Below are positions 21,854 through 26,952 of a stretch of 47,073 nt of DNA, in pieces. The translations under genes were made by a program, and so were the position numbers. The stretch spans positions 1 through 47,073 of the forward strand of contig CACZXL010000008.1 of NCBI GenBank assembly GCA_902785135.1, read 5' to 3'. Within the stretch, counting starts at the first letter, position 1, and each line of letters begins with the position of its first letter. The stretch comes from an uncultured Erysipelotrichaceae bacterium. GTDB lineage: Bacteria > Bacillota_I > Bacilli_A > RF39 > UBA660. The notes beneath the pieces were generated by a model. It ran no database searches and had not been told where the DNA came from. It worked only from the letters and a program-made list of their open reading frames with translations.

Positions 21854-21890
21854 AAAAAGAGCATAAGTCCCCTACTAGTCCTTATACTCT
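21854..21890 (-). terminator. Terminator of the VanY-type peptidase gene
   Basis: On the minus strand AGAGTATAAG (21890-21881) pairs with CTTATGCTCT (21867-21858) around a 13-base loop, with one mismatch, followed by six T. It lies over the 3' end of the gene. Confidence 0.75.
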
Positions 21891-23269
21891 GAAGTTAATC
21901 CATAATATTCTTCTAAAGATATTCCACCCGCATCATGTATTTTTTTAGCAATATCTTTACCTACATATCTTAAATGCCATGATTCATATACATATCCAGT
22001 AAATTGTTCTTTACCTTTAGGAAATCTAATTATAAATCCATATTTATAACAATTTTCATCTAACCATTTAGCTTCCGCAGTATCATGGAATGATGAATCA
22101 GCAGCATTTATATCTGCCGCTAAACCTGTTTGATGTTCTGAATAACCTGGTCTTGCTGAATAAGTATCTGCAGCAGCTTTACCATCTCTTTTTACATAAG
22201 CTTCATATAAATCTTTTTGATAATCATAATCTCTAAAACCAGAAGCCACAAATAAAGATATACCATCTAATCTAGCAGCTGATTGCATTTCATAAAAAGC
22301 ATCCATAAATTCATCAGTTAATCCACCTGGATTATAAGTTGAAGGAAGTGGATAAGTTTTATTAACAATCATTATTCCATCAATATAAGTTATACCATCA
22401 ACAGTAGATAATTGTGGTTTAGTTTCAATAACTGGTTTTTCTTTCTTTTCTTCTTTCTTCACTTCTTGTTTTTTCTCCTTTTTAACAGTTACCTTTATTT
22501 CTTTATCTATTCTATCTTTTTTAGAAGTTACTGTTATATATGTAGTACCTGCTTTCTTACCAGTAACTACTCCATTCTTTACTGACACTATCTTTTTATC
22601 ATATTTATAATCTAGTTTATTATAAGTAGAATTACTAGGATTTATTTTTGCATTTAACGTTCTGCTTTCTCCTACACTAATATTTAAATTATTTGAAGAA
22701 GATATACTTTTACCTTTTATATATGTTATAAAGAAATCATCATAATTATGATTAATATTAAAAGTAATATATTTATCTTCTACTTTTACTGAAGGCGCAA
22801 GTAAGATAATATCATTCTTATTTTTAACACCATATATATCAACAATACCATTTTTATATAAGTATCTAGGTAATTTTATAGTTAGTTTATCAGTTCTATT
22901 TAAAATATCATTTTTTTCTATATATAAAGTTTTTACGTTATCAAAAAGAGCTTCATCAACATACTTTTTATATGTATTAAGTTTAAGATTCATTCCGTTT
23001 TTAAATTTACTTGAATCCATTTCCATAGTATTACTTCTATATTTTATAGTAACTGTATCAATATCATCATGAACATAATTTAATGTTTTTTTCCAAACTT
23101 TTACTTCTTGTTTATATAATTTTACAGAACCATTCTTTTTAATACTATTATATATTCTTAAATTAAGTAAAGCTTTTATACCAAATACAATTCCCATTAC
23201 AAATAGAATTAATAACGCTAAACAATACGCAATTCTATCTATTCTGAGTCTTTTTCTTCTCTTTTTCAT
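21875..23269 (-). CDS. Anchored D-alanyl-D-alanine carboxypeptidase (VanY family) with a Big_2 domain
   Basis: A 464-residue protein: a basic N-terminus, a membrane anchor (about 13-32), and about 150 residues of unrecognised extracellular sequence. A bacterial Ig-like Big_2 domain (about 195-265: ISVGESRTLNAKINPSNST, VVTGKKAGTTYITVTSK) and a Lys/Glu-rich spacer follow. The C-terminal VanY peptidase has the zinc-site motifs YSEHQTGLAADIN (about 374-386) and ESWHLRYVG (about 427-435). It trims the terminal D-Ala of peptidoglycan stem peptides. Nothing nearby suggests vancomycin resistance, so a cell-wall housekeeping role is more likely. It is a single gene. Confidence 0.88.
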   Translation of the reverse strand: MKKRRKRLRIDRIAYCLALLILFVMGIVFGIKALLNLRIYNSIKKNGSVKLYKQEVKVWKKTLNYVHDDIDTVTIKYRSNTMEMDSSKFKNGMNLKLNTYKKYVDEALFDNVKTLYIEKNDILNRTDKLTIKLPRYLYKNGIVDIYGVKNKNDIILLAPSVKVEDKYITFNINHNYDDFFITYIKGKSISSSNNLNISVGESRTLNAKINPSNSTYNKLDYKYDKKIVSVKNGVVTGKKAGTTYITVTSKKDRIDKEIKVTVKKEKKQEVKKEEKKEKPVIETKPQLSTVDGITYIDGIMIVNKTYPLPSTYNPGGLTDEFMDAFYEMQSAARLDGISLFVASGFRDYDYQKDLYEAYVKRDGKAAADTYSARPGYSEHQTGLAADINAADSSFHDTAEAKWLDENCYKYGFIIRFPKGKEQFTGYVYESWHLRYVGKDIAKKIHDAGGISLEEYYGLTSEYKD

Positions 23270-24142: not shown

Positions 24143-25468
24143 ATGATAGGAACATTTATAGGAAAAAGTATAACAAAAATAGAAAAACTATTTAAATTTA
24201 ATGCATCTTCTTTTCCAGGGAAAGTTGTATTAAAATTATTTCCAGAGTATTTAAAAAAAGTTAAATATCCTGAAAATATAATTATGGTAACAGGTTCTTC
24301 TGGTAAAGGAAGTACAGTTAGTTTAATATGTGATATATTAAAAAATAATAATCAAAAAGTATGTACTAATAAAGAAGGATCTAATTTAATATTTGGTGTC
24401 GCTACTGCGATAGTTAATTCAGTAAGAGGAAAAAAATTGAATGCTGATGCATTAGTTTTAGAAGTAGATGAAAGATATTTAAAAATAGTAACAAAACATA
24501 TTAAACCTAAGTATTTAATAGTAAATAATATAACAAGAGATCAACCTCCTAGACAAGGTACTTTTGATATAGTATTTAATGAAATAGCTAAAGGTTTAAG
24601 TGAAGAAACTAATTTAATAGTTAATGGAGATGATCCAATACTTAGAAAATTTAGTTTAATTCATAAAGGAAATATTACTTATTTTGGACTTGATAAAACT
24701 AAGTATAGTTATAAAGATAGAGATGATATTAAAGACTATTCATATTGTCCTAAATGTCATAACAAATTAATATTTGATTATTATCATTATGGAAGTGTTG
24801 GTAATTATAAATGTACAAAATGTGATTTTAAAAGAGATAATATAGATTACTCTATTACTAAAGTAGATTATAAGAATAATGAAATAACTATTAATAATGA
24901 TAAAATAAAAGTTAAAAATTATATTTTATTTAATTTATATAATATCGCAGGAGTATACTCTCTTTGCTCTATGTTAAATATAGATAAAGATATAATAATA
25001 AATACTATAGAAAACTCTGAAATTAATAAAAAAATATTCAATGAATTTGAAATAGATAACAGAAAATATTGTATATTAAACTGTAAGGCAGAAAATAACG
25101 CTACTTATAACCTATCGTTAATTTATACTGCAATGGATAAAGAAAAAAAGACTATTGTACTAGGTCTTAGAGAAATTAGTAGAAGATATAATCATTTTGA
25201 TTTATCATGGTTATATGATATTTACTTTGAACTATTAAATGAATCAAATATAGATAAAGTAATATGTGCTGGACCATATGCTTATGATATTGCAACAAGA
25301 TTAAAATACGCAAATATAAAAGAAGAAAATATTATTATTTTAAAAGATTTAACTGATATAAAAGAAACTATTGATAATAAAACTAAAGGAAATATATACG
25401 CAATTCTAAATTTTGATTACGTAAATCCATTTATTGAAAAAGTACAAGTAAAGGAGGAAGAAAAATGA
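24143..25468 (+). CDS. murT: MurT, lipid II isoglutaminyl synthase ligase subunit
   Basis: A 441-residue Mur-ligase-like protein. The ATP loop is VTGSSGKGSTVSL (49-61). A zinc ribbon of the MurT type is inserted at about 201-226 (CPKCHNKL and YKCTKCDF). The C-terminal DUF1727 region includes VLGLREISRRYNHFDLSWLYD. MurT activates the D-Glu carboxylate of lipid II so that it can be amidated with ammonia from GatD. TGA stops the gene inside an ATGA overlap with gatD, which indicates translational coupling and that UGA is a stop codon. MurT itself looks complete, in contrast to its partner. Confidence 0.93.
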   Translation: MIGTFIGKSITKIEKLFKFNASSFPGKVVLKLFPEYLKKVKYPENIIMVTGSSGKGSTVSLICDILKNNNQKVCTNKEGSNLIFGVATAIVNSVRGKKLNADALVLEVDERYLKIVTKHIKPKYLIVNNITRDQPPRQGTFDIVFNEIAKGLSEETNLIVNGDDPILRKFSLIHKGNITYFGLDKTKYSYKDRDDIKDYSYCPKCHNKLIFDYYHYGSVGNYKCTKCDFKRDNIDYSITKVDYKNNEITINNDKIKVKNYILFNLYNIAGVYSLCSMLNIDKDIIINTIENSEINKKIFNEFEIDNRKYCILNCKAENNATYNLSLIYTAMDKEKKTIVLGLREISRRYNHFDLSWLYDIYFELLNESNIDKVICAGPYAYDIATRLKYANIKEENIIILKDLTDIKETIDNKTKGNIYAILNFDYVNPFIEKVQVKEEEK

Positions 25469-26109
25469 AAATAACTATTGGATATCTTTACTATGACTTA
25501 TTAAATTTATATGGAGATTCAGGAAATATAAAAACTTTAAAATATCATTTAGAAGAACAAGGAATTGATGTAAAAATAGAATATTTATCAGTTGGGGATA
25601 AAAAAGATTTCAGTAAATTAGATTTAATTTATATAGGAAGCGGAACTGAAGATAATATACTTGTTGCAATTGATGACTTAAAGAAAGATAAAAAAGAATT
25701 AGAAAAATACATAAAAGATAATAAATTTGTTTTAGCGACAGGTAATTCAGTAGAATTATTTGGAAACTATATAATATCAAAAAATAAAAAGACTAAAACT
25801 TTAGGTATATTTGATTATGTATCAATGTATCAAAAAAGAATAGTAAAAGATGTAAATATAAAAACAGATATAATTGATGAAAATATAATTGGTTTTGAAA
25901 ACCATGTTGGAAATATACTTACTTATGATGAAAGTATAATAAAACTAGATAACTTTTATGGAACATATATTATTGGTCCATTGCTAGTTAGAAATCCAAA
26001 ATTTTGTTCATACTTTATTAAAGAATTAATTCTAAGTAAAAATAAAGAATTTGAATTTAAAGAAGAAAACTATAAATTAGATGAACTAGCATATAGTAAT
26101 GTAAAATAA
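25465..26109 (+). CDS. GatD-like glutamine amidotransferase homologue lacking catalytic Cys and His
   Basis: A 214-residue protein in the gatD position, coupled to murT. The fold landmarks are those of GatD/CobB-type class I amidotransferases: YYDLLNLYGDSGNIKTLKYH, DLIYIGSGTEDN, GFENHVGN and GTYIIGPLLVRNPKF. The nucleophile elbow, usually (A/I)CGGYQLLG, reads ATGNSVELFG (91-100), with Gly93 where the catalytic Cys is expected. The later LHGP motif reads IIGP, with Ile170 in place of the catalytic His. Both glutaminase residues are therefore missing while the flanking sequence is conserved. It may act as a structural partner of MurT with free ammonia as donor, or carry another activity. The gene is otherwise intact with a strong AGGAGG site. 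Confidence 0.85.
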   Translation: MKITIGYLYYDLLNLYGDSGNIKTLKYHLEEQGIDVKIEYLSVGDKKDFSKLDLIYIGSGTEDNILVAIDDLKKDKKELEKYIKDNKFVLATGNSVELFGNYIISKNKKTKTLGIFDYVSMYQKRIVKDVNIKTDIIDENIIGFENHVGNILTYDESIIKLDNFYGTYIIGPLLVRNPKFCSYFIKELILSKNKEFEFKEENYKLDELAYSNVK

Positions 26110-26138
26110 AAAACTATTAACAAAAGTTAATAGTTTTT
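26109..26138. terminator. Bidirectional terminator between gatD-like and zinc-ribbon genes
   Basis: AAAAACTATTAAC (26109-26121), loop AAAA and GTTAATAGTTTTT (26126-26138) form a perfect 13-bp stem between two converging genes. Confidence 0.85.
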
Positions 26139-26952
26139 ATTTGTTTATTTGAATTGTATTAATATTTAAATTATTTCTATTAATTCTAGATTGACCTGTT
26201 ATTCTACTTAAACATAATAACACTAGAATAATACATAATAATATTACTATTAAATTAAGAACAAATATAATTGGATTAAATATAGTTCTTTTCTTTTCTT
26301 CTTTAGTTTCCTTTAACATTGTTCCACAATGTACACACATAACTGCATCTTTCGCAATTACATTATCACATTTATAACATCTTTTAAAATATCTACCATC
26401 AAATTTAGGTTCTTTCTTACTTACTACATATTCGTTAATAACTGGTGAAGAAATAACTTTTGTTTCTTCTTTTTTAACTGTCTTTTTATTAGTTTTTGAT
26501 AAATCTACAAATTCAATAGTATTGTTATTACTGTTATAACCTTTAAAACTAATTAATCTATTTTGAATATCAGAATTATGGAAAACAGCTTTTAATACTT
26601 TTCCTCCTAATAAATCACTTATTATATTATTTTCATTAAATGTATATTTTGTATCTTCGGTTTCAATTCTATTAGATATCTTATCTAATACTCTCTCATT
26701 TCTAACATTTAAATCATCATCTATTCTGAAATAATCAAATAATGTTTTAATAAATAATAAGAATACACCTAAAGCTAAACAAAATACACCAATATTTCTA
26801 TATCTTACTAGAGATACAGTTAACATTTCACTTACTTTTGAAGCACCTGCACTTTTAATAGTAAATAGATATTTAAAATATAATACAAACGATCCTACTG
26901 CGATTGCAAATGGTATAAATATCAAAAAATTAAATAACTTTTTCTTGTTCAT
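26137..26952 (-). CDS. Membrane protein with a zinc ribbon, function unknown
   Basis: A 271-residue protein: two N-terminal membrane helices (about 8-28 and 50-68), a soluble middle, and a double-CxxC zinc ribbon (CYKCDNVIAKDAVMCVHC, about 191-208). A C-terminal helix (about 228-248) is followed by a short polar tail. The zinc ribbon just before a membrane helix is a common layout in small Firmicute membrane proteins of unknown role. No enzyme motif is seen. It is a single gene between terminators. Confidence 0.75.
   Translation of the reverse strand: MNKKKLFNFLIFIPFAIAVGSFVLYFKYLFTIKSAGASKVSEMLTVSLVRYRNIGVFCLALGVFLLFIKTLFDYFRIDDDLNVRNERVLDKISNRIETEDTKYTFNENNIISDLLGGKVLKAVFHNSDIQNRLISFKGYNSNNNTIEFVDLSKTNKKTVKKEETKVISSPVINEYVVSKKEPKFDGRYFKRCYKCDNVIAKDAVMCVHCGTMLKETKEEKKRTIFNPIIFVLNLIVILLCIILVLLCLSRITGQSRINRNNLNINTIQINK

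Follow-up and report, generated by a model that had tools for sequence, protein, structure and literature searches.

Both catalytic residues of the glutaminase site have been lost from the GatD homolog of a murT-gatD operon in an uncultured Erysipelotrichaceae bacterium (GTDB lineage Bacilli_A; RF39; UBA660), carried on a 47,073 nt contig (CACZXL010000008.1) that was analyzed whole and is here called the window. The loss is fixed across a lineage of relatives, where MurT has changed along with GatD while keeping its ligase residues, and both genes are under purifying selection. The remodeled MurT, together with the diamino-acid genes that adjoin a sister family of such pairs, favors another amine donor; with a probability of about one half, the pair is an active MurT ligase with GatD as a non-catalytic subunit and a free amine, probably an amino acid, as the donor.

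Loss of the glutaminase site in GatD

Alignment to solved GatDs places Gly93 of the window protein at the catalytic Cys94 of Staphylococcus aureus GatD and Ile170 at its catalytic His189, bearing out the claim of a preliminary description of this DNA that GatD is without both residues. The changes extend to the oxyanion loop, where the GGG of Streptococcus pneumoniae (G72-74) corresponds to G58-S59-G60; position 59 is Gly in 29/29 canonical GatDs and is mostly Met, Ser or Ala in GatDs that have neither Cys nor His, called dead GatDs below. D18 and R125 are retained, corresponding to S. aureus D19 and the glutamine-capturing R128, and the glutamine-capturing residue is Arg in 110 of the 123 dead GatDs. 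The features of the locus are as follows.

24143..25468, plus strand: murT, a divergent MurT-family subunit of the Mur ligase type, 441 aa
25178..25189, plus strand: murT codons 346-349, Ser-Arg-Arg-Tyr in place of the canonical ND...DG loop
25450..25457, plus strand: ribosome binding site of gatD, AAAGGAGG, from the sequence
25465..25468, plus strand: ATGA overlap of the murT stop and gatD start codons, from the sequence; translational coupling
25465..26109, plus strand: gatD, a GATase_3-fold subunit of 214 aa without Cys and His
25738..25749, plus strand: gatD codons 92-95, Thr-Gly-Asn-Ser in place of the nucleophile-elbow [I/V]-Cys-Gly-Gly
25741..25743, plus strand: gatD codon 93, GGT (Gly93), from the sequence
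25972..25974, plus strand: gatD codon 170, ATT (Ile) at the catalytic His position, from sequence and alignment
26108..26139, no strand assigned: probable terminator between convergent genes, an inverted repeat with A and T runs on each side, picked out by eye

The overlap and the ribosome binding site upstream of gatD also agree with the translational coupling to murT that had been described.

Across 152 aligned GatDs, the Cys and His columns read Cys/His in 29, Gly with Ile, Leu, Val or Thr in 122, and Glu/Arg in one. In total, 123/152 have neither residue and 29/152 retain both, with no intermediates keeping only the Cys or only the His, and no other Cys or His replaces the lost pair at the active site in this alignment. 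A sequencing error at these codons is rejected, as the same residues recur in many independent assemblies. No second GatD was found in the window genome (93.6% complete), in which the window protein is the sole match to GATase_3.

Further, the replacement elbow, TGN[SA]xELFG, is itself conserved among dead GatDs. Motif conservation within the main genome scan is biased, because the TGN motif was one of its two search patterns; among the 43 dead GatDs fetched without any motif pattern, T92 and G93 are each present in 42, N94 in 39 and Ser or Ala at position 95 in 41. In a separate dead GatD of genome G064 (L258 5956-8133), Glu stands for the Cys and Arg for the His, and its MurT reads DRRYLITQW; this is possibly an independent loss. 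The dead GatD of G089 (L257 6116-8124) has TGC rather than TGN, with a Cys one residue past the usual position, and its MurT loop is SRKYFTSET.

The substitutions are shared throughout the lineage, although the genomes compared are mostly metagenome bins. All 12 of the searched genomes of the genus, including the window genome, have a GatD match of the dead type, as do nearly all GatD-bearing genomes of the bacterial family. The scan of 84,980 species genomes yielded 289 relatives, of which 80 were kept, mostly from uncultured Bacilli and related bins. A MurT tree built without the switching columns (a quick, unrooted tree; split support 88) requires one change between the canonical and dead states. 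Bacillaceae almost entirely lack the murT-gatD operon (PMC6085368). Canonical pairs occur in two genera of the family (G034 and G154) and cluster with the canonical pairs of another family, suggestive of horizontal gain. Outside Bacilli, a dead GatD is present in a named strain, the clostridium Vescimonas fastidiosa MM35, where it lies on pMM35_01 (L269 4299-4991) beside a Mur ligase family protein and is annotated as a hypothetical protein. No relatives were found on viral contigs. The record MT837974.1 (L267), labeled Bacteriophage sp. (unverified), contains murT, a dead gatD and a RecD2-like helicase gene, and therefore looks like a bacterial contig.

Pfam GATase_3 matches GatD above its cut-off (54.9 bits), and MurT_C and Mur_ligase_M (PF08245) both match MurT above theirs; at an E-value threshold of 0.001, the only PDB sequence matches are solved MurT and GatD chains, the former matching the window MurT at 3e-53 to 3e-41. 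The AlphaFold models have predicted local distance difference test scores of 90.3 (GatD) and 88.0 (MurT). The best structural matches of the GatD model are the GatDs 5n9m, 6gs2, 9sq9 and 6fqb, with template modeling scores up to 0.88, while those of the MurT model are headed by solved MurTs, the Foldseek matches being MurT, MurF, MurC and MurE. In the GatD model, strand 88-92 runs directly into helix 93-99, which preserves the nucleophile elbow with Gly93 at its tip.

MurT changed together with GatD

The preliminary description had called MurT intact. This holds for the window MurT as a ligase, although its C-terminal loop sets it apart from canonical MurTs. In particular, the P-loop K55, N81, E107, D109, E110, N129, D133 and R137 are invariant in 120/120 partners of dead GatDs, and the window MurT also keeps R132 and most of the zinc cysteines. 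The invariant set covers the ATP and acceptor residues of the known synthase, namely the P-loop Lys, Asn85, the Asp/Glu pair, Asp136 and Arg140. Mutating several counterparts of these ligase residues abolishes or reduces the activity of S. pneumoniae MurT/GatD (PMC6085368).

In contrast, the loop before DxSW has switched. It follows N-D/N-x3-D-G-x-D in 27/27 canonical MurTs, one of them with Ser for Gly, and reads [IV]-S-R-R-Y in the partners of dead GatDs, where S346, R348 and Y349 are each present in 114/120, compared to 0/27 in canonical MurTs. The switch from NDxxxDGxDxSW to [IV]SRRYxxxDLSW occurs in dead-GatD pairs only, and the window MurT has EISRRYNHFDLSW where canonical MurT has a DNxAD-type loop before DxSW. 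Moreover, the active-site loop RDQLDRYGE becomes RDQP[PA]R[QN]GH in most dead-GatD partners, and the net charge of MurT segment 337-355 moves from -3.0 in canonical MurTs to +0.2. The C-terminal loop of MurT sits between the GatD site and the ATP site (PMC6113224); in S. aureus, its DNAADD has been compared to DNPAND, the lysine site in MurE, and MurT is able to substitute for MurE in vitro (PMC3266927). The lineage-wide substitutions and the change of MurT along with GatD go beyond what had been described.

The GatD dN/dS is 0.04-0.25 for close pairs, with similar values for MurT; these are well below 1, implying purifying selection on both genes and ruling out decay. Of the same 60 genomes, 27 have a MurT_C match and 26 a GatD; the one additional MurT_C match is weak and below the cut-off. 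These results bear on whether the pair is decaying or has left peptidoglycan D-Glu for regulation or for another ligase reaction. Such a change of role would fit the isoglutaminyl synthase models of NCBIfam, whose scores fall far under their cut-offs (203 against 800 bits for MurT, 101.8 against 400 bits for GatD), a weak test in that the cut-off for GatD is not reached by any genome in the class sample. It is nevertheless unlikely, given the low dN/dS, the invariance of the acceptor-carboxylate Asn81 and of the Mg/ATP acids, and the retention of MurC, MurD, MurE and MurF in the window genome. Purifying selection and co-occurrence thus oppose the loss of function that had been offered as one of three possibilities. 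The window genome has two MurE genes (L034 and L032; contigs C11 and C14), with the donor motif DNPG in one and DNPR in the other; the second MurE was considered as a partner of MurT, and no link was found, since many relatives without MurT also have two MurEs.

The amine donor

A second family of dead GatDs and MurTs is present in the same bacterial family, and all of its members are without the Cys and His. Most of them have also lost the glutamine-capturing Arg of GatD, and the loop of their MurTs is variable (DEVYEGLDAQET and TDTKDKHHGSED are two examples). The gene order in both G004 and G006 is EctB (a diaminobutyrate transaminase, above cut-off), MurT, GatD, Orr (ornithine racemase) and an ATP-grasp protein; G465 has EctB, MurT, GatD and an alanine-racemase family gene, which may be an ordinary alanine racemase; G447 has MurT, GatD and EctB; and G553 has Orr, MurT and GatD. 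EctB was found in four genera, adjoining the pair in three of them. It is present in 5/18 genomes with the second family and in 0/35 without it, and EctB or Orr in 6/18 versus 0/35 (p = 0.0008, to be read as a guide only because the genomes are related). Through this linkage, the second family points to amino acids as the donor. Orr was rejected as a general cell-wall marker; elsewhere in the class its neighbor is a gene that by eye resembles GlmL/MutL, in keeping with a role in ornithine degradation. In G507 (L242 7019-9385), a sugar-transfer-type ATP-grasp domain is naturally fused to MurT, and unfused ATP-grasp genes of this kind adjoin other second-family pairs.

From these observations we infer which carboxylate accepts the amine, that the donor is an amino acid, and that GatD has a structural role. 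GatD would be a pseudo-glutaminase, a conserved, non-catalytic subunit still required by MurT; S. aureus MurT is inactive without GatD (PMC3266927). MurT would use ATP to activate a carboxylate of a peptidoglycan precursor, presumably the D-Glu alpha-carboxyl on lipid I or II, and the attacking amine would be a free small cytoplasmic amine instead of ammonia released from glutamine in GatD. This amine would most likely be an amino acid, held by the remodeled C-terminal loop SRRY, and the product would be, in place of isoglutamine, a stem peptide with a branch or bridge. Other amine donors are possible too: the walls of Veillonella and Selenomonas have polyamines attached to D-Glu (PMC12826042).

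Several results weigh against an amino-acid donor. EctB and Orr are both missing from the window genome; no recurrent amino-acid gene lies next to the pair at the 80 loci of the main family; and the MurE-MurT C-terminal profile alignment is too weak to confirm that SRRY corresponds to the amino-acid site of MurE. A canonical MurT-GatD pair is carried by a plasmid of Leifsonia, which belongs to the Microbacteriaceae, a family known to have B-type walls; such bacteria are therefore not necessarily carriers of the dead form. Two gate acids of MurT, D353 and D359, are also retained; in canonical MurT they are turned toward GatD and flank the putative route of ammonia.

The gate acids fit the main and serious rival, ammonia-dependent amidation, in which MurT makes D-isoglutamine from free NH3, presumably plentiful in the gut, and GatD only holds MurT active. 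Its precedent is the C94G mutant of S. aureus GatD: at pH 8.5, it and MurT together amidate lipid II from either NH3 or NH4Cl, an activity that MurT alone does not have; at pH 7.5, NH3 was not used by the S. aureus enzyme (PMC3266927). Free ammonia would also leave the MurT loop switch and the sister family's amino-acid genes unexplained, and we hold it as a tentative explanation. In a second version, another cellular glutaminase or amidase would feed the pair with ammonia. The retention of MurT, the GatD fold and the gate residues would suit this arrangement; however, no recurrent partner gene lies beside the 80 loci, and the window GatD is the genome's only GATase_3 match (other glutaminase families were not searched), making it very unlikely. 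Overall, of the donors named in the preliminary description, one other than ammonia is favored.

In B-type peptidoglycan, an amino acid is carried on the D-Glu alpha-carboxyl. MurT and pseudo-GatD could be relatives of the glutamine-dependent amidase that form a family of amino-acid ligases of the cell wall, with the donor set by the MurT C-terminal loop. Members would attach amino acids, among them diaminobutyrate (DAB) or D-ornithine in the case of the sister family, to this carboxyl, starting B-type cross-bridges; this more specific proposal is possible but doubtful. Both DAB and D-ornithine have been found in B-type walls (PMC4156110, PMC5945732).

Around the window locus, murT-gatD is flanked by two genes of the opposite strand, yebC and one for a zinc-ribbon protein. 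A gene for a VanY/M15-type D-Ala-D-Ala carboxypeptidase lies nearby (21875-23269), and VanY/M15-type genes are also near the pair in G016 (L017 2167-3282, by eye) and on the Leifsonia plasmid (L266 7054-7938).

In the open-access literature searched, no paper was found that describes loss of the glutaminase site from a natural MurT/GatD, a form that is common in a large gut-bacterial lineage (a single genome scan gave 289 loci). Should the donor be an amino acid, the pair is a candidate enzyme for linking an amino acid to the stem-peptide D-Glu, a step for which the literature searches returned no gene. If it is ammonia, the pair is a natural counterpart of S. aureus C94G, and the coupled glutaminase is dispensable in nature.

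Comparison with known systems

The MurT/GatD lipid II isoglutaminyl synthases of S. aureus, S. pneumoniae and Streptococcus pyogenes share with the window pair their operon order and folds, the P-loop Lys, the acceptor Asn, the zinc cysteines and, in the window protein, the glutamine-capture Arg. They differ in that the window GatD is without the catalytic Cys and His and has an altered oxyanion loop, the donor-side loop of the window MurT is SRRY and not NDxxxDG, and the GatD of the window genome is about 25-35 residues shorter than most. The S. aureus C94G laboratory mutant has the same Cys to Gly change; in contrast, only one of its residues is altered, and its His, oxyanion loop and MurT are wild type.

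The B-type bridges of Microbacteriaceae, whose walls have yielded D-ornithine or DAB on analysis (PMC4156110, PMC5945732), resemble the present case through the sister family's position beside DAB and racemase genes. MurE and the other Mur amino-acid ligases likewise combine ATP-dependent activation of a carboxylate with attack by an amine, and in MurE the specific donor contacts are supplied by the C-terminal domain (PMC3829189). Compared to MurE, MurT has no UDP-binding N-terminal domain, is paired with a GatD-like partner, and carries a loop of unrelated sequence.
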